The translations under genes and the position numbers were made by a program. Under the pieces are notes generated by a model, which worked only from the letters and a program-made list of their open reading frames with translations, searched no databases and was not told the DNA's origin. This document shows positions 1 to 48,423 of a DNA stretch of 53,217 nucleotides, piece by piece; the stretch's first letter is position 1, and each line of letters opens with the position of its first letter. The DNA comes from Desulfovibrio sp. Its GTDB lineage: Bacteria; Desulfobacterota; Desulfovibrionia; Desulfovibrionales; Desulfovibrionaceae. The DNA is taken from NCBI GenBank assembly GCA_014804965.1, contig JAAUYU010000033.1:1-53217 (forward strand). The letters run 5' to 3'.

Positions 1-1042
1 GCGAACCTTTTACCATATTTTAAAAGGATAAGGCTTCCCCCCCCCCCCCCCCCCCCCCCATAAAACTCTATGGATTCCGGTCATTTGACTATCAGCATTG
101 TTTTTTTGACAATAGACTTTGTGATCGCTTGCGAGATGTACTCTGGCTTACGCAAAGTGAAAAACAAATTTATTTTGCCACAAAATTTTCTCAACCTATC
201 GGTAAAGGTCCCGCATTAACTCTCTCAAGTAAAGTTCCCGACTTGGATTTTTTTTGTAATAGGGGCGCTAAAGACATTTTCCCCCTCTACCGCAACGCAG
301 CCGCCACGGAGCCGAATATCCTCCCCGCCTTGCTCGAGCTGCTTTCCAAGGCATACCAGCGGCCGGTGGGGCCCGAGGATTTGGCTGCCTACGTCTATGC
401 GGTGCTCGCGCCCAGCGCCTTTACGGAAAAATTCCATACCGAGCTGGCAAGCCGCGAAGTGCATGTGCCCCTGACCAGGGATGTGGTGCTCTTCGCCCGC
501 GGCGTGGACCTGGGCAGGCGGCTCATCAGGCTGCACAGCTATGGCGAGCGTATGTTGGCGCAAGGGGACAAAAAGGGGGACGTTCCTCCGGGAAGCGCCA
601 AGTGCCGCAAGGCGGTCCCCGGCGACCCGGAGGGCTATCCCGTGGCCTTTTCCTACAATGAAAGCACGGGCACGCTCCATGTGGCGCTGGGGAGTTCGCG
701 CCTGTGAGCCCGGAGCTGTACCATTTTGAAGTTTCGGGCCTGAAGGTGGTCCAATCCTGGCTGAACTATCGCATGAAAGAAAAATCCGGCCGCAAGTCCT
801 CACCGCTGGACGACATCCGCCCGGAACGCTGGACGGCCGAATATACGGAAGGGCTGCTGCGCCTCTTGTGGGTGCTGGAGGCTACTCTGGAAATCTATCC
901 GGCCCAGAAGGCGCTTCTGGAAGAGATACTGGCAAGGGACATGCTTACGGCTGACGAACTGCCCCCCGTTCCCGAAGCGTCCAGAAAAGCGCCGGACATC
1001 CCAAAAGTGGTGCGCGTCGAGCAACAAAGCCTGTTGGCGTGA
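1..1042 (+). pseudogene. Type ISP restriction-modification enzyme, 3' part, out of frame at two places
   Basis: This is the C-terminal part of a large single-chain methyltransferase/nuclease of the Type ISP family; the 5' end lies outside the window. Before the C tract only frame 1 is open (ANLLPYFKRIRL, then prolines) and it stops at the TAA at 61-63. After the tract frame 3 is open from about base 60 (IKLYGFRSFDYQHCFFDNRL) to the TGA at 705-707. The family's C-terminal block then continues in frame 2 from about 693 (FAPVSPELYHFEVSG) to 1042. The run YGFRSFD, then PDLDFF, then IFPLYR, then VSGLKVVQSWLNYR, then SSPLDDI is the order I recall for this target-recognition region. One extra C or two fewer would repair the first break; one extra G in 689-692 would repair the second. 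The first ~260 bases are A+T-rich, the rest G+C-rich. It is either a phase-variable gene now off, a decaying gene, or a sequencing error. Confidence 0.8.
37..59. repeat. 23-base poly-C homopolymer inside a coding frame
   Basis: There are twenty-three consecutive C residues (37-59), flanked by A+T-rich sequence. The tract lies inside the Type ISP coding region and encodes a proline run. With 23 Cs the incoming frame 1 hits TAA at 61-63; a multiple of three (21 or 24) would join it to the long downstream frame. Homopolymers of this kind mutate by slipped-strand mispairing and are a known phase-variation switch in other restriction-modification genes. The exact length given by an assembly is often unreliable. 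Confidence 0.9.
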
Positions 1043-1060
1043 GGGTGCGCCTCCCGGCCG

Positions 1061-2500
1061 CTAGGCCTCCTTGCGGAAGGGATGGTCGGAGTGGCGCTCG
1101 CGCGCCAGATACCAGCCCACCATCCAGCCGAGCAATGAAAAGGCAAAGCCCACGAAGAAGGGCGGGATGATGCTCGCCTTTTCCCAGAAGATCGGCAATA
1201 TGCTGAAGCTCTTGTTGGCCGTGAGATACCAGAACATGCACACCGTGAAGCCCGCCGTGCAACTCAGCCAGGCGCCCACGGGGCAGCGCTTGCCGAAGCG
1301 CACGAGCGCCACGTAGGGCACCAGCACGGTCGCGCCCACGATGCTCCAGCTTGTTGTGCAGAGCAGGGCGATGAGCTGGCCCTTGATTTGCGCGCAGCCG
1401 CCGGAGAGCAGCACGCAGAAGATGATGCCCGCGAGCCACGCGCCGCGCGAAGCCTTGCGGCCCGGCAGGTCCTCGGCGAGCGCCGAGACGGCGATATGGA
1501 AGATGGCCGTGGCCGTGGAGAGCGACGCCGACACGATGGCGAGCACAAAGAGCTGCAGCCCGGCGTTGGGAAGCAGCAGCCGCACCAGCATGGGCATCAC
1601 TTCGTCCGGCGAGCTCACCTCCGGCAAAATGAGCCGCGAGAGCGAGGCGGCAAAATACGCGCCCCCCACAAGCAGGGTCAGCACCAGCATGGCAAGCGGC
1701 GTGATGCGGTCCACCTGCTTCGGGGAAGCGAGCGCGAAATGCCGCTGGATCATCTGCGGCTGGGCCCACACCGCCACTGAAGTGACGATGACGAGCGAAA
1801 TGATGAACCAGCCCATCTCGCCGCCGGAGAGGGCCGCAAAACCGTTGTTCACCGCGGCCGTCGGCGGAAGCTCGGCCAGCTTCTCGATTCCCGCCGCCGG
1901 GCCGCCCACCTGCACAAACACCGCGCCGACGAGCATACAGATGCCCACCAGCATCACAAAGCCCTGCATGGCCTCGGTATAGAGGACGCCGCGCAGGCCG
2001 CCCACAAACACCGCAAAGCCCACGAGCAGCGCCACGGCCCAGATGAGTATCCAAACAGGCACGGGCACGATCTGCGCGAGCAAAAGCGCCGCGCCCTTGA
2101 TGACAGCCGAGGCATAAACGCCGAGGAATACGGCGAACAGCACGGCCAGCGCCTTGCCGAGCGCGCGGCTCTCGTGGCCCTTGGCGATAAGCTGGGTGGG
2201 CGTGCGCGCGCCGAGGGCCCGCTGGCAGACGCGCGTGGGCCACGCCATGAAGCGGTAGACCATCCAGGTGCCCAGCCACACATTGCCCGCGGCCACGAGC
2301 AGCATTTGCAGGCCATAGGCATAGGCGAGACCGCCGAAGCCCACGAGGGCCACGGCGGAAATATAGGTCGCCACATAGGCGAAAGCCTGGATGCCGAAGC
2401 CCACGCGCCCGGCGGTGAGGGCGTCATGGCCGCGCCCCTTGCGCGCGAGCCACACAAAGACCGCGATATATGCCGCCCAGATGCAGATATTGAAAAACAT
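1061..2500 (-). CDS. Sodium:solute symporter (SSS family)
   Basis: This 479-residue, strongly hydrophobic protein has about a dozen membrane segments, typical of sodium:solute symporters (PanF/PutP-like) of the inner membrane, which couple sodium entry to uptake of a small solute. The substrate cannot be read from the sequence. The N-terminal part shows the usual pattern of a first helix, a short charged loop (WLARKGRGHDALTAGR) and a glycine-rich second helix (YISAVALVGFGG). Its ATG overlaps the TGA of the upstream 43-aa membrane gene by one base (TGATG at 2498-2502), which implies translational coupling. The TetR gene lies just upstream on the same strand and may control the pair. It converges on the Type ISP remnant with an 18-base gap. 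Confidence 0.88.
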   Translation of the reverse strand: MFFNICIWAAYIAVFVWLARKGRGHDALTAGRVGFGIQAFAYVATYISAVALVGFGGLAYAYGLQMLLVAAGNVWLGTWMVYRFMAWPTRVCQRALGARTPTQLIAKGHESRALGKALAVLFAVFLGVYASAVIKGAALLLAQIVPVPVWILIWAVALLVGFAVFVGGLRGVLYTEAMQGFVMLVGICMLVGAVFVQVGGPAAGIEKLAELPPTAAVNNGFAALSGGEMGWFIISLVIVTSVAVWAQPQMIQRHFALASPKQVDRITPLAMLVLTLLVGGAYFAASLSRLILPEVSSPDEVMPMLVRLLLPNAGLQLFVLAIVSASLSTATAIFHIAVSALAEDLPGRKASRGAWLAGIIFCVLLSGGCAQIKGQLIALLCTTSWSIVGATVLVPYVALVRFGKRCPVGAWLSCTAGFTVCMFWYLTANKSFSILPIFWEKASIIPPFFVGFAFSLLGWMVGWYLARERHSDHPFRKEA

Positions 2501-2631
2501 CAGCGTCGGCCCCGGTGTTTGCGGGCCACGGCCGCGAGATTCCAGATGGCCAGCACCAGCGCCCCCGCCAGGGAGAGCACGGCGATCTTGACTGCCATGT
2601 CGGTGAGCATGAGCGCCTTGAAGAAATCCAT
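2500..2631 (-). CDS. Small membrane protein paired with the symporter
   Basis: This is a 43-residue protein starting MDFFKALMLTDMAVKIAV with one membrane helix (about residues 12-34) and a basic tail (ARKHRGRR). The start at 2631 is chosen because AGGAG lies six bases upstream; an in-frame upstream start at 2697 has no such support. Its stop overlaps the symporter start, so the two should be made in equal amounts. Tiny accessory membrane proteins are known next to some SSS symporters (for example YhdT with PanF), so a role in assembly or stability of the transporter is inferred from position and size only. Confidence 0.72.
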   Translation of the reverse strand: MDFFKALMLTDMAVKIAVLSLAGALVLAIWNLAAVARKHRGRR

Positions 2632-2693
2632 GCTGTCTCCTGAAACCGGGGTTTGGGAGGGGGCGCCCTGCGGGCGCGCCGCTCGGGCGGCTG

Positions 2694-3317
2694 TCATTTC
2701 ACGGGAGCGTTGCCTTGGTCGGTCGCCGCATCAGCGCGGCTCCTGATAGAGCGGGAAACAAAGGCCAGGGTCTCCTCATAGAGGCCTTCAGGCGCATAGG
2801 GCGTGAGCACACGGGTGCGGTTGGCCCCGACAAGGAGGGAAATGACCACCTGCGCCGTACCGTCGGCATCCAGCGTGACAAGGCTGCCGTCCTCCACGCC
2901 GCGGACGAGCAGGGCGGCCAGCAATTCGTGGATGCGGGCAAAGCGCGAATCCATGAGGTCCCTGTCCGTCTTGGTCTTCATGTCGCTGTAGGGGGAGCAG
3001 CGCACGAGCACGAGCCAGTTGGAGTGCGGATCGATGGAAAAATCAAGGTAGGCGCGGCAAAAGCGCATCACTGCATCATAGCCCGTGGGCGCGCCCGCCA
3101 CCGCGGCCTTGAGGTGCGCGAGGAACTGTTCCAGCACGTCGAGGCCCGAGGCGAGGAAGAGCTTTTCCTTGTTGCCGTAGTGGTGCGTCAGGAGGCCGAG
3201 GGCAACGCCGGCACGGTCGGAAATCTTCTTGAAGGTCGTCTCCGCATAGCCGTATTCGCCGAAAAGTTCCTTGGCGGCTTGGAGGAGGGCGGCTTTCTTG
3301 CTCGGGTTCCTGTTCAT
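2694..3317 (-). CDS. TetR/AcrR-family transcriptional regulator
   Basis: This 207-residue protein has a typical N-terminal TetR helix-turn-helix at about residues 8-52 (KKAALLQAAKELFGEYGY, then FKKISDRAGVALGLLTHHYG). It is followed by a helical ligand-binding domain without recognisable specificity. Such proteins are dimeric repressors released by a small molecule. The ATG at 3317 has GAGG seven bases upstream. The gene sits between the Lon-like protease (upstream, 15-base gap) and the symporter pair (downstream), all on the minus strand, so the symporter genes are the most likely local target. No operator could be identified with confidence. Confidence 0.9.
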   Translation of the reverse strand: MNRNPSKKAALLQAAKELFGEYGYAETTFKKISDRAGVALGLLTHHYGNKEKLFLASGLDVLEQFLAHLKAAVAGAPTGYDAVMRFCRAYLDFSIDPHSNWLVLVRCSPYSDMKTKTDRDLMDSRFARIHELLAALLVRGVEDGSLVTLDADGTAQVVISLLVGANRTRVLTPYAPEGLYEETLAFVSRSIRSRADAATDQGNAPVK

Positions 3318-3332
3318 GCCGGACCTCGGGGC

Positions 3333-5765
3333 TCAGTTGCCGCGTGTGCGCCGAAAGGCGGTCTGGGCGTAACAGCCAAGGCGCTCGAGACGCCGGTCCA
3401 CAAGGTCATAGAGGCTTCCGGGGGTGAAGCGGCCATTGGCGCGCCGCCTGCCCGCGGGAAGGCCGCTCAGGAGCATGAGGGCCTCCTCCATGCGGCGCAC
3501 GGGATAGATGGCGAAGCGCCCGGCTTCCACGGCTTCGAGCACTTCGGGGGAGAGCATGAGGTGGTCCACATTGTCATGGGGGATGATGACCCCTTGCGTG
3601 CCCGTGAGCCCGCGCCTGCCGCAGACTTTGAAAAAACCCTCCACCTTGCGCGTGGCCCCGCCCACGGCCATAATCTGCCCGGAATGGCTCACCGCCCCCG
3701 TAAAGGCGAGGTCGAGGCGCATGGGCGTCTCGGCCAGCGCCGAGAGCAGGGCGGCGAGCTCCGCGCCGGAGGCGGAATCGCCCTCGATGCCCGCGTAGCT
3801 CTGCTCGAAATAGAGCGAGGCCGAGAGCATGAGGGGCTTGGTGCGGGCGAAAAGATCCGTGAGGTAGCTTTTCAGGATCATCATGGCCTTGGTGTGGATG
3901 GGGCCGCCGAGGTCGGCCTCGCGCTCAAGGTCGATGATGCCGTCCTGGCCCACGCCCACGGTGCAGGAAATGCGGTGCGGCAGGCCGAACTCGTAATTGC
4001 CGTGCCAAGTGACGGAAAGGCCGTTCACCTGCCCGACCGCAGAGCCCGAGGTCTGCACCTTGATGATCTCGCGGTCATATTCCTCCATGAAAATCTCTTC
4101 ATCGAGGTTGGCGCGATAGGTGCGGGCGGCGTAGGCGTCCTCCAGCGTGGCGGCGTTCACATGCGGCAGCCCGCGCAGTTGCGCGAGGGCCGCGGCCTCG
4201 ATCATGAGCTCGCGCAGCAGGGGAAAGCGCAGCGAAAGGCGGCGCTGGTCCTCGCAGAGGTGCGAGCCCAGGTCCACGAGCCACGCCAGGGCGTCCCGCT
4301 CGAAAGGCGGAAGCTCCGCCTCGGCGGCGATGCGCGCGATATGCCCGAGATACGCCCGCACATTGGGGGCCGTGCGCTCGGCCACATCGGTCATGTGGGC
4401 CTTGATGCGGAAGAGCTTGGCAAAGCGCTCGTCCGCCATGAGCAGGCTTTCGTAAAGCTCTTCCCCGCCGATGAGCACCACCTTGAGGTCAAGCTCCAGC
4501 GGCTCCGGCAGGATGCCCTTGGTGCGCAGGGCGGTGTCGGCGGGCTCGCCGCAGTCCTCGATACGGGCCTGGTTGGCGCGCAGGGCGCGGAGCAGGCCCT
4601 CCCACGCGCCGGGATGCTGGAGGATGTCCTCCATGTGCAGCACGAGAAAGCCGCCATTGGCCTTGTGCAGGCTGCCCGCGCGGATAAGGGTGAAATCGGT
4701 GACGAGGGCGCCCATTTCGGACTCGCGCTCCACGCAGCCGAGCAGGTTCACCGCTGTGGGATTGTCCTCCACCACGATGGGCGCGCCCGCAAGCTCCCCG
4801 TTATCCACAAAAAGGTTCACTTCGTAGCGGTAAAAGCAGTCGTCGGCCGGGGGCTGCCCGTGGGAATCGCCGGGCCCTGCGGCATCCCGCGGCAAAAAGG
4901 CCTCGGTATTGCGCAGGATGTCCTCGCGCAGGGCATCGAAATAGCCTTTCAGGGCATCCGAGGGGCAGGCCTTGAGCATCCGCTCGCGCGCCGGGGCGAG
5001 TTCCGCGTCCAGCACCTGCCTCATGGCCGAGAGTTCCAGCTCGTGCTCGTCGTCGCGAAAGGATTCCTCGGCCTTGTTCAGCTGGCGCAGGAAGGCCGCC
5101 ATCTTGCCAGCCAGGCTGTCGCCGCGGCGCTTGAGGTCAAGGCGCAGGGCATTGTCAAGGCGGCCATATTCCTCCTCGCTCAGGCGCTTGCCCTTAACGA
5201 GCGGAAAGAGCGTGAGGCCGCCATTCTCATCCACGTCGAGATTGAAGCCACGGTGGGCGGCCACGTCGTTCATCTTGTGGATAAGGCCGGTGCGCACCTT
5301 CTGGAAGCGCTCCATGAGGCGCGCCCTCTGGCGCACATAGGCCTGGGTCTCGAAGCGGCGCGCCAGCTCGCGGCCGATGGCGTCGATGACATCCTTCAAG
5401 CAGTCCTTGAACTTTTTCCCCTGGCCCGCGGGGAGCGCGATGAGGAGGGGCCTGTCCGGGTCCGCAAAGTTCTGGACATAAACGAGGTCATGCGGCGTCG
5501 CCATGCGTTTGGCCCGCGGCCGAAGATAGTTGAGCAGCATATAGCTGCGGCCGAGGTCCGCCTCGCCCGAAAGATAGACATTGTAGCCCGTGGCCCTGAT
5601 CTGGAGCGCCAGGTCGAGCGCCTGCATGGCCCGCGGCTGGAAAGGATTGGCGCGGCCCGCGCCCTCGCGCGGCAGGGGAATGGCCGAGCTGTCGGCCCAG
5701 GGGATGCGCGCCGGGTCATAGGTGGCATGGAGGCGGGATGCCGGAAGGGGAGCAATGCGTGCCAT
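3333..5765 (-). CDS. Lon-like ATP-dependent serine protease (AAA + S16)
   Basis: This protein is about 810 residues long. It has an N-terminal region, an AAA-type ATPase core and a C-terminal Lon (S16) proteolytic domain, in the arrangement of the bacterial Lon-related family rather than classical LonA. The catalytic serine is in GDSAS (Ser664) and the lysine in TRKVEG (Lys707); the 43-residue gap equals that in E. coli Lon (679/722). The P-loop-like sequence GEADLGRSYM has arginine in place of the usual lysine, and a helical insertion follows it. The start is ambiguous: ATG at 5765 is used, but a TTG at 5774 directly abuts the hemC stop; neither has a good Shine-Dalgarno site. It is probably co-transcribed with hemC upstream and tetR downstream. 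The likely role is removal of damaged or specific regulatory proteins in the cytoplasm. Confidence 0.9.
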   Translation of the reverse strand: MARIAPLPASRLHATYDPARIPWADSSAIPLPREGAGRANPFQPRAMQALDLALQIRATGYNVYLSGEADLGRSYMLLNYLRPRAKRMATPHDLVYVQNFADPDRPLLIALPAGQGKKFKDCLKDVIDAIGRELARRFETQAYVRQRARLMERFQKVRTGLIHKMNDVAAHRGFNLDVDENGGLTLFPLVKGKRLSEEEYGRLDNALRLDLKRRGDSLAGKMAAFLRQLNKAEESFRDDEHELELSAMRQVLDAELAPARERMLKACPSDALKGYFDALREDILRNTEAFLPRDAAGPGDSHGQPPADDCFYRYEVNLFVDNGELAGAPIVVEDNPTAVNLLGCVERESEMGALVTDFTLIRAGSLHKANGGFLVLHMEDILQHPGAWEGLLRALRANQARIEDCGEPADTALRTKGILPEPLELDLKVVLIGGEELYESLLMADERFAKLFRIKAHMTDVAERTAPNVRAYLGHIARIAAEAELPPFERDALAWLVDLGSHLCEDQRRLSLRFPLLRELMIEAAALAQLRGLPHVNAATLEDAYAARTYRANLDEEIFMEEYDREIIKVQTSGSAVGQVNGLSVTWHGNYEFGLPHRISCTVGVGQDGIIDLEREADLGGPIHTKAMMILKSYLTDLFARTKPLMLSASLYFEQSYAGIEGDSASGAELAALLSALAETPMRLDLAFTGAVSHSGQIMAVGGATRKVEGFFKVCGRRGLTGTQGVIIPHDNVDHLMLSPEVLEAVEAGRFAIYPVRRMEEALMLLSGLPAGRRRANGRFTPGSLYDLVDRRLERLGCYAQTAFRRTRGN

Positions 5766-46241: not shown

Positions 46242-47342
46242 ATGGGCTTTGCATTCATCAAGCATGACACCCATATCGACTTCATCGGCAAAAGGCGCTG
46301 GGCCTATGCCGTCTCCATCCTCATCCTGCTGGCGGGCCTCGCCTCGGTGCTGTGGGGCAACGGCCTGAGGCTCGGCATCGACTTTGCGGGCGGCGTCATC
46401 GTGCAGGTGCAGTTTGCGCAGCCCGTGGAGGACGAGGCCCTCAAGAAAAGCCTCAACATTCCCGAGCTTCCCGGCATCAGCACCCAGCGCTTCGGCGAAG
46501 GCGGGCGCGACTACCTGCTGCGCTTTTCCAGCTCCGAAAGCGGGGATGCCTCGGTGCTGCGCACCAATGTGCTGAAGGCGCTGGCGCAGGCCTTTCCGGA
46601 CAATCCCGCCGAAATCCAGCGGCTCGAGGTCGTGGGGCCAAAGGTGGGCGACGACCTCACCAACAAGGCACTGAGCGCGCTTTACTATGCCGTGCTGCTC
46701 ATCGCCGTCTATATTTCCGGCAGGTTCGAGCAGCGCTGGATGGCCGGCGCAATCATGGCGGCGGCGCTCTGGGGCGGCATGTACCTCTTCAGCTTCACCC
46801 CGGTGAGCATGGGCTGGCAGGTGCTGCTGGCGCTCGCCATCACCCTGATGGTCTGCTTTGTGCTCAAGCTGAACTTCGCCCTCGGCGCGGTGGTGGGCCT
46901 GTTGCATGACGTGTTCATCACCCTGGGCCTGCTCTCCATCCTCGATGTGGAGATCGACCTCAACGTCATGGCGGCCATCCTGACCATCGTGGGTTATTCG
47001 CTCAACGACACCATCATCGTCTACGACCGCCTGCGCGAAAACCTGCGCGCCCGGCCCGAGCTGGACCTTGCCTCGCTCATCAACCGCAGCGTCAACCAGA
47101 CGCTCTCGCGCACCATCCTCACGAGCGGCACGACCTTTGTGGCCACGCTTTCGCTCTTCCTGCTCGGCGGCGGCGTCATCCATGATTTCGCGCTGACCAT
47201 GCTCATCGGAGTGGTGGTGGGCACGGCCTCGTCCATCTATGTGTCTTCCGCCATACTGCTGGCCCTGGGCGACACGGATTTTTATGTCCGCGCACAGGAA
47301 AAGGAAAAGTACGAGCGCCCGGGAGAGCACGGAATCGTCTAG
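46242..47342 (+). CDS. secF: Protein translocase subunit SecF
   Basis: This protein of about 366 residues is the partner of SecD. FIKHDTHIDFIGKRRWAY leads into the first helix, then LRLGIDFAGGVIVQVQF, a periplasmic domain, and five helices with VVGLLHDVFITLG, VGYSLNDTIIVYDRLRENLR and NQTLSRTILTSGTTF, all conserved. ATG at 46242 has GGAG seven bases before; ATG at 46230 is the other option. A rho-independent terminator follows. Confidence 0.96.
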   Translation: MGFAFIKHDTHIDFIGKRRWAYAVSILILLAGLASVLWGNGLRLGIDFAGGVIVQVQFAQPVEDEALKKSLNIPELPGISTQRFGEGGRDYLLRFSSSESGDASVLRTNVLKALAQAFPDNPAEIQRLEVVGPKVGDDLTNKALSALYYAVLLIAVYISGRFEQRWMAGAIMAAALWGGMYLFSFTPVSMGWQVLLALAITLMVCFVLKLNFALGAVVGLLHDVFITLGLLSILDVEIDLNVMAAILTIVGYSLNDTIIVYDRLRENLRARPELDLASLINRSVNQTLSRTILTSGTTFVATLSLFLLGGGVIHDFALTMLIGVVVGTASSIYVSSAILLALGDTDFYVRAQEKEKYERPGEHGIV

Positions 47343-47364
47343 CCTCTTCCCGCGCACGTTTTCC

Positions 47365-47404
47365 GGCCGCCCTTGTGGAATCCGCAGGGGCGGCCTCGCT
47401 TTTT
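47365..47404 (+). terminator. Rho-independent terminator after secF
   Basis: GGCCGCCC (47365-47372) pairs with GGGCGGCC (47388-47395), the enclosed TGTGGA/TCCGCA extends the stem, and CGCTTTTT follows. Confidence 0.82.
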
Positions 47405-47406
47405 AA

Positions 47407-47422
47407 GGGAATGGTTTTTGCA
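47407..47422 (+). promoter_or_regulatory. Possible sigma-54 promoter for the 100-aa unknown
   Basis: GGGAATG, four bases, TTGCA (47407-47422), with the essential GG-N10-GC spacing, 49 bases before the ATG. The -12 half is perfect and the -24 half weak. It is less convincing than the site at 11488-11503. Confidence 0.35.
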
Positions 47423-47470
47423 GCGATTTAGCTGCGCTGGAAGATATTTCCGGCCGCAAGGTGATACTCT

Positions 47471-47773
47471 ATGCAGGTTTCAGGCAGCTACAGCGCCATC
47501 GGCGCCCTCACAGGGATCGACCCCACGCAGCAGACGCGTCGTGAGCCCCGTCGGAGCGGCGCGAGGGCAGGGGACACGGTTTCCATTTCCGAAGAGGCGA
47601 TGGCGGCGTTCCGCAATTCCACCTTGCAGGTGGATGAAGCCCCTGCAGATGAGGCGCAGGACACAGCTACAAAATTTCGCCGGGCCCTTGAAGACGCCTG
47701 GAATGAAACTGAGCGTGCTGAACCCTCTCTCATGGCGCAGCTGCGTGGGCTTTGGAGCAAGTTCCTTGACTAG
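47471..47773 (+). CDS. Small unknown protein with N-terminal serine motif
   Basis: This 100-residue soluble protein is not recognised. It opens MQVSGSYSAIGALTG, has the segment AGDTVSISEEAMAAF typical in style of small motility-linked or secreted proteins, and ends in amphipathic helices (FRRALEDAWNETERAE, LMAQLRGLWSKFLD). The opening resembles that of the repeat protein at 10168-11397 (short, serine- and glycine-rich), and both have sigma-54-like sites, so they may belong to one regulon. AAGGTG lies about eight bases upstream. Its TAG stop overlaps the stop of the converging peptidase gene. Confidence 0.7.
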   Translation: MQVSGSYSAIGALTGIDPTQQTRREPRRSGARAGDTVSISEEAMAAFRNSTLQVDEAPADEAQDTATKFRRALEDAWNETERAEPSLMAQLRGLWSKFLD

Positions 47774-48423
47774 TCCATGCTCCAGAGCGCCAGTGCCTCG
47801 TCAAAGCTCACTTTGTGCACCCCGCAGATACCGTCCACGAATTGGTAGGGATAGGTGCCACTGAATTGCGGCTCGGGGTAAATAAAGCTGTTCCAGTGGA
47901 TGAAGGAGGGAGCTTCGTAACCCCCCGGGTCAAGGATGAGTATCCTCTGCGGTTTGGGCAACGCTCCGTTTTTTCTGGCACTCCCGCACGTTGCCTCCTC
48001 AAATTCAAGGCCGCAGGCGAGCACGGCATGGGCCACTCCGCCCCGTGCCCTGATGCCGAGGATGACCGGATGCCCGTCTGAGAGATGGCTTACGGTGAAG
48101 CGGATGATACTCTTGTTGTTTCCTTCGTGAAATTCGGTCTTGATCTTGCGCCCATACGCCTTGTCCAGAACCTCCTTCAGGTCCTCGATATAGGAGCCGC
48201 CGCTGAAAAGGGCCGGATAGTCCTCAAACTGCTTGTAGAGCCTGCCCAGTTGGGTGCGGCGGTCCGGCTCATGGGCAAAGGAGGTTTCATCGTCCACATA
48301 GCCGCACAGGTTGAGGCCCATCATCAAGGCGTAGAGACCGCATGCCCCGTCGAGGTCCCCCTGACGAAACAGCACGGGATGTTCCCTGTCCACGACAGCA
48401 TCGGCAATGAGAATTTGACGCAC
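47770..48423 (-). CDS. Predicted papain-like cysteine peptidase (C39-like)
   Basis: This 217-residue protein has residues in papain order: Gln21 and Cys28 in RQGDLDGACGLYALMMGL, His132 in GGVAHAVLACGLEF, and Asp165 in ILILDPGG. The glutamine-cysteine-histidine-aspartate arrangement is that of C39-like or related bacterial cysteine peptidases; catalysis is inferred. There is no signal peptide. The start is GTG at 48423, with AAGGAAGG about eight bases before. Neighbours are a 22-residue-repeat protein upstream on the same strand and a WYL regulator beyond it, suggesting one functional unit. It could be a toxin/effector, a maturation protease, or a stress protein; sequence cannot decide. Confidence 0.7.
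   Translation of the reverse strand: MRQILIADAVVDREHPVLFRQGDLDGACGLYALMMGLNLCGYVDDETSFAHEPDRRTQLGRLYKQFEDYPALFSGGSYIEDLKEVLDKAYGRKIKTEFHEGNNKSIIRFTVSHLSDGHPVILGIRARGGVAHAVLACGLEFEEATCGSARKNGALPKPQRILILDPGGYEAPSFIHWNSFIYPEPQFSGTYPYQFVDGICGVHKVSFDEALALWSMD

Follow-up and report, generated by a model that had tools for sequence, protein, structure and literature searches.

Does a long run of cytosines at the very start of a contig switch a restriction-modification gene by slippage? The window analysed here (the whole stretch of 53,217 bases) lies at the start of contig C33 in draft genome G000 (39 contigs, 2,544,990 bases, 93% complete) and carries 23 consecutive C at positions 37–59 of the plus strand, the sole run of at least nine of any base in this stretch. 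The original prediction held that this tract may be a phase-variation switch: a Type ISP gene would be silent at 23 C and become one open gene when the tract gains one C or loses two (+1 or −2). The tract is real in the assembly and the frames on which that idea was built were both reproduced, frame 1 running without a stop from base 1 to within the tract, before which frames 2 and 3 contain stops, and frame 3 being open 3′ of the tract up to a stop at 705–707. The prediction had also hung on the existence of a 5′ part of the gene, and this is present in the same genome, on contig C27.

The 5′ half lies at the start of C27 on the minus strand as an open frame of 718 residues ending in TGA, past which the same frame carries on as family sequence up to a C tract (C16 A CCC) that also forms the end of that contig. 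Along PADLOC profile PDLC03631, C27 covers positions 14–753 and C33:51–692 covers positions 753–959, so that the two halves abut at the tract. The frame 3 coding sequence 3′ of the tract (60–707, plus strand) matches positions 77–282 of the Pfam family Type_ISP_C (E 2.2e-42), the recognisable family sequence that had been predicted there, and the C-terminal end of the same gene follows in frame 2 (704–1042, plus strand; Type_ISP_C positions 292–342, E 1.2e-8 over 704–1039). The nearest ortholog, in the sister species G026, is a stop-free open frame of 1107 residues along which the G000 pieces tile with 79% (C27), 68% (60–707) and 86% (704–1042) identity. Bases 1–35 of C33 form a gap-free alignment with the C27 end in which 28 of the 35 match, a score reached in none of 5000 shuffles. 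No second place for the recognition domain was found in G000 (all four candidates scored), and for a second 5′ half two of the seven whole-profile PDLC03631 candidates were scored. Synteny was considered as proof of the C27–C33 join and set aside, as the G026 stretch that was fetched aligns with nothing on C27 outside the gene; window positions 69–4905 align to G026 at 86%.

The domains and PADLOC support the predicted single-chain restriction-modification gene, and they place it in another class. PADLOC assigned the C27 half to REase_MTase_IIG (E 1.5e-246) and the G026 protein likewise (E 0). In Pfam, N6_Mtase was above cut-off in both, Eco57I was above its cut-off of 25.3 bits on C27 (27.5 bits) and below it in G026 (19.7 bits), and HSDR_N stayed under cut-off on both, which leaves the nuclease with weak backing from Pfam. 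The recognition domain typical of Type ISP enzymes, Type_ISP_C (PF18135), was found both 3′ of the tract and in the G026 protein (239 bits), and no helicase family was matched at E up to 0.01 in the C27 half or the whole G026 protein. The only NCBIfam match was a MADS methyltransferase, far under cut-off. Solved chains found by sequence were LlaBIII, LlaGI and 7lo5 (an adenine-specific DNA methyltransferase). The likeness to the Type ISP enzymes LlaBIII and LlaGI extends to the methyltransferase part (PDB 4xqk, E 6.4e-24; 5ffj, E 2.4e-20) and the Type_ISP_C recognition family, whereas those enzymes are of 1578 and 1406 residues and the G000 gene is of about 1100, without a helicase family match. 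Nuclease, adenine methyltransferase and recognition domain thus lie in one chain of about 1000–1100 residues lacking a helicase, and we conclude from these profile matches that the predicted architecture is that of a Type IIG enzyme, with a nuclease-like N terminus, an N6-adenine methyltransferase and an ISP-like recognition domain; since no helicase was matched, the gene is not Type ISP proper, and that label is not supported. Type_ISP_C was matched in 33 of 288 genomes of the family, mostly in genes of about 1600 or about 1100 residues, and the gene with the C tract belongs to the short class.

Which frame is coding before the tract was read from the alignment to C27. The first 36 bases of C33 (1–36, plus strand) are coding sequence homologous to the C27 end, and their homologous frame is frame 3 (EPFTIF*KDKASPPPPPPPIKLYGF), which is also the frame 3′ of the tract, so that 23 C is in register in C33; in this frame the tract encodes Pro residues. 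Frame 1 amounts here to 12 codons outside the family sequence which, judged from that alignment, are chance codons. The proposed arithmetic does reproduce, tract lengths of 18, 21, 24 and 27 joining frame 1 to the downstream frame (24 and 21 being the +1 and −2 cases), but it sets out from a frame that is not homologous, and no length change is called for to make one gene where the homologous frame already lies on both sides. The joined product, moreover, would not be a whole gene, as it would stop at 707, short of the end of the family domain, whose final portion is read in frame 2 from 704. With no helicase match and a TGA in the 5′ half besides, the model in its original form (Type ISP, silent at 23 C, restored by +1 or −2 C) is barely credible even though its frame arithmetic can be reproduced.

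Two lesions lie apart from the tract. One is the in-frame TGA on C27; the other is a frame break at about 684–703 (plus strand), where the family match runs in frame 3 to 683 and in frame 2 from 686 and where the G026 gene reads straight through. That this break is another slippage switch, in the manner of Helicobacter pylori, was considered and rejected, the longest homopolymer at 684–703 being GGGG. Neither the TGA nor the frame break depends on the tract, so no tract length by itself gives a full-length gene in this assembly. The gene does contain a long homopolymer within coding sequence, far above the run lengths usual in the genome. Either the assembled copy is off for reasons other than the tract or the bases at these two lesions are consensus errors, and the function of this copy is, from its sequence, uncertain.

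These lesions, along with a TAA that interrupts the homologous frame at the start of C33, are what a fixed pseudogene would display. On that view the TGA and the break at about 684–703 have killed the gene, and its C tract is either left over from an earlier state or expanded neutrally, without acting as a switch today. We consider this unlikely, though it deserves serious weight. Against G026, dN/dS was 0.10 before the TGA, 0.15 for 60–683 and 0.13 for 704–1039, most pieces being close to saturated at synonymous sites; such low values in the three main pieces suggest that any loss of the gene is recent, although the value of 0.47 over the 46 codons directly before the tract is weaker in this respect. 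Decay of this one gene would also leave the in-frame tracts in two other G000 genes, described below, unexplained.

The position of the tract raises the further question of whether poly-G read errors, arising where a contig ends, added to its length or even created part of it. Only 36 bases separate it from the start of C33, and the C27 and C33 ends disagree there at seven of 35 bases, for which reason the figure of 23 C is soft. All seven mismatches alter a residue or create a stop (codons read by eye), and errors or decay would fit them better than a conserved second allele. Read phasing was also considered as their origin, four of the seven bases equalling the preceding base in read direction (tallied by eye) with about one third expected by chance, which is not decisive. 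That consensus indels are possible in the G000 assembly follows from a second MBOAT gene (C23:46419–47533, within L201:844–2316, C23 ~46340–47820), which is frame-split without a long homopolymer and is itself either a pseudogene or a consensus error. An artefact of this kind is nonetheless improbable, given that a run of at least 16 C was assembled independently in both contigs at the same point of the gene and that runs of 14 and 16 inside other contigs have intact flanking frames. Those two runs were assembled through, while the assembly broke at the tract of the restriction-modification gene, as would fit a tract that is longer than they are or mixed in length.

Long runs of this kind are rare in G000. 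Among its 27 C/G runs of at least eight, four are of at least 11 and all four of these are of at least 14; 20 of the 23 shorter runs were measured, at lengths of 8 (n = 17), 9 (n = 2) and 10 (n = 1), the remaining three being below 11. The four long runs represent three loci, all coding: the restriction-modification gene (both contig ends), a Methyltransf_25 gene with a tract of 16 nt (G000:C13:19271–19286; L039:5272–5287) and an MBOAT acyltransferase gene with a tract of 14 nt (G000:C23:28331–28344; L040:4832–4845), each of the latter two being in frame on both sides. The 14-nt MBOAT tract adjoins an AG/CT dinucleotide repeat. The G026 ortholog of the Methyltransf_25 protein, 72% identical over most of its length, has a tract of 12 that is out of frame, as against 16 and in frame in G000; other matches to this protein in the genus are distant (24–32%).

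Two further G026 genes are split between frames at a homopolymer, an N6_N4_Mtase gene at 13 G (C4, L072:477–489) and, at 16 G (C7, L073:2021–2036), a gene whose weak likeness to AlgX falls under the Pfam cut-off and directly downstream of which lies an MBOAT gene. The short upstream frame of the N6_N4_Mtase gene gave no Pfam match and contains what we take to be a DPPF motif. Across the genus, a run of at least 12 is present in 34 of 79 genomes (146 matches in all), and the 20 stretches opened contained 23 runs of at least 11. Among these, the clear coding cases were only the three G026 tracts and an in-frame radical-SAM gene of genome G019 (12 G); the remaining opened runs, being non-coding, ambiguous, at contig ends or N-bearing, were left out of the argument. 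A pattern of long tracts within genes is thus shown for G000 and G026 only.

Taken together, these results modestly favour, at somewhat above an even chance, the reading that the tract is a homopolymer prone to slippage, located within a single-chain Type IIG restriction-modification gene and one of few long poly-C/G tracts in the lineage. The tract would sit between the predicted methyltransferase part and the Type-ISP-like recognition domain, and other tracts of the lineage appear to lie in genes of methyltransferase and surface-modification type. Changes in its length may switch the gene between longer and truncated forms, and such switching could leave some cells of the population with altered methylation and phage restriction. 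This reading draws support from the two halves that abut on PDLC03631 and tile the G026 protein, from the rarity and coding location of long runs in G000 with a shared gene differing 16/12 between species, from the two additional genes split at tracts in G026, and from the published precedent of a C repeat read as PPPP in H. pylori Type IIG genes. It is weakened by the two lesions beside the tract, by the other genomes of the genus, in which most of the long runs that were opened offered no clear coding switch, and by the relatives: a C tract is absent from the matching place in the G026 ortholog, the longest open reading frames of 29 Type_ISP_C loci, some of which hold only part of the gene, contain no C/G run of at least eight, and the same is true of 29 of 30 Type IIG loci, the thirtieth being the C-tract gene itself.

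The tract is probably a contingency tract by origin, within a Type IIG copy that is broken elsewhere as assembled, and phase variation of the restriction-modification gene is plausible on these comparisons. Of the original prediction, the observation was partly confirmed, and the interpretation is partly supported by long tracts lying, in G000 and G026, in genes of kinds known to vary in phase and by one shared gene that differs in frame; its frame logic and its Type ISP label are not supported, and the two other lesions of this copy stand on the opposing side.

Close published counterparts are the Type IIG genes JHP1272 (Hpy99XIV) and HP1353–HP1354 (HpyAXVI) of H. pylori, which are described as switching at a C repeat read as PPPP and as having a second repeat that changes specificity (PMC3936762). 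In those genes a second homopolymer alters specificity, whereas the second break of the G000 gene has none; their recognition regions are compared with that of MmeI, whereas that of the G000 gene belongs to Type_ISP_C; and their switching is demonstrated, where that of the G000 gene is inferred. The same source describes a Type ISP gene cluster whose frameshifts do not stem from repeats (PMC3936762). Cj0031 of Campylobacter jejuni is a phase-variable Type IIG enzyme, like the G000 gene in class but from another host group, and its phase variation alters methylation and phage restriction (PMC4889913, PMC6321876). Excerpts of the literature on Type ISP enzymes and phase variation mention no homopolymer switching of a Type ISP gene, and in that on the Desulfovibrio group, judged mostly from listings (including PMC12579266), no homopolymer switching in that group was seen. 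As the gene is Type IIG in architecture and not Type ISP, phase variation in it would be of a kind already known, C-tract switching of Type IIG genes having been published for H. pylori.

The organism, which we take to be Desulfovibrio-like, is a dissimilatory sulfite reducer, dsrA being above cut-off in G000. We tentatively suggest, at a little under an even chance, that this lineage of sulfite reducers possesses a small set of poly-C/G switches varying DNA restriction and surface acylation or methylation, which would yield populations of mixed phage defences and surfaces; the restriction switches would be the Type IIG gene in G000 and the N6_N4 methyltransferase in the sister species. Homopolymer switching of restriction-modification and surface genes is best known in host-adapted bacteria, such as Campylobacter and Helicobacter. 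If the suggestion is true, such switching would extend to sulfite and sulfate reducers (dsrA-bearing relatives) and would account for strains differing in methylation or phage resistance in ways that a consensus genome masks, and the contig ends of draft genomes can flag such switches.

Searched against viral contigs, the post-tract protein gave no match, and in the genome contig collection it had one distant relative, from Salinibacterium (40%). Inside the recognition domain, G+C content rises from 38% (window 60–290) to 65% (291–683), and synonymous divergence from G026 is 0.58 in 704–1039 compared with 1.4–1.7 in the larger preceding pieces. The jump in G+C and the falling divergence suggest a mosaic gene.
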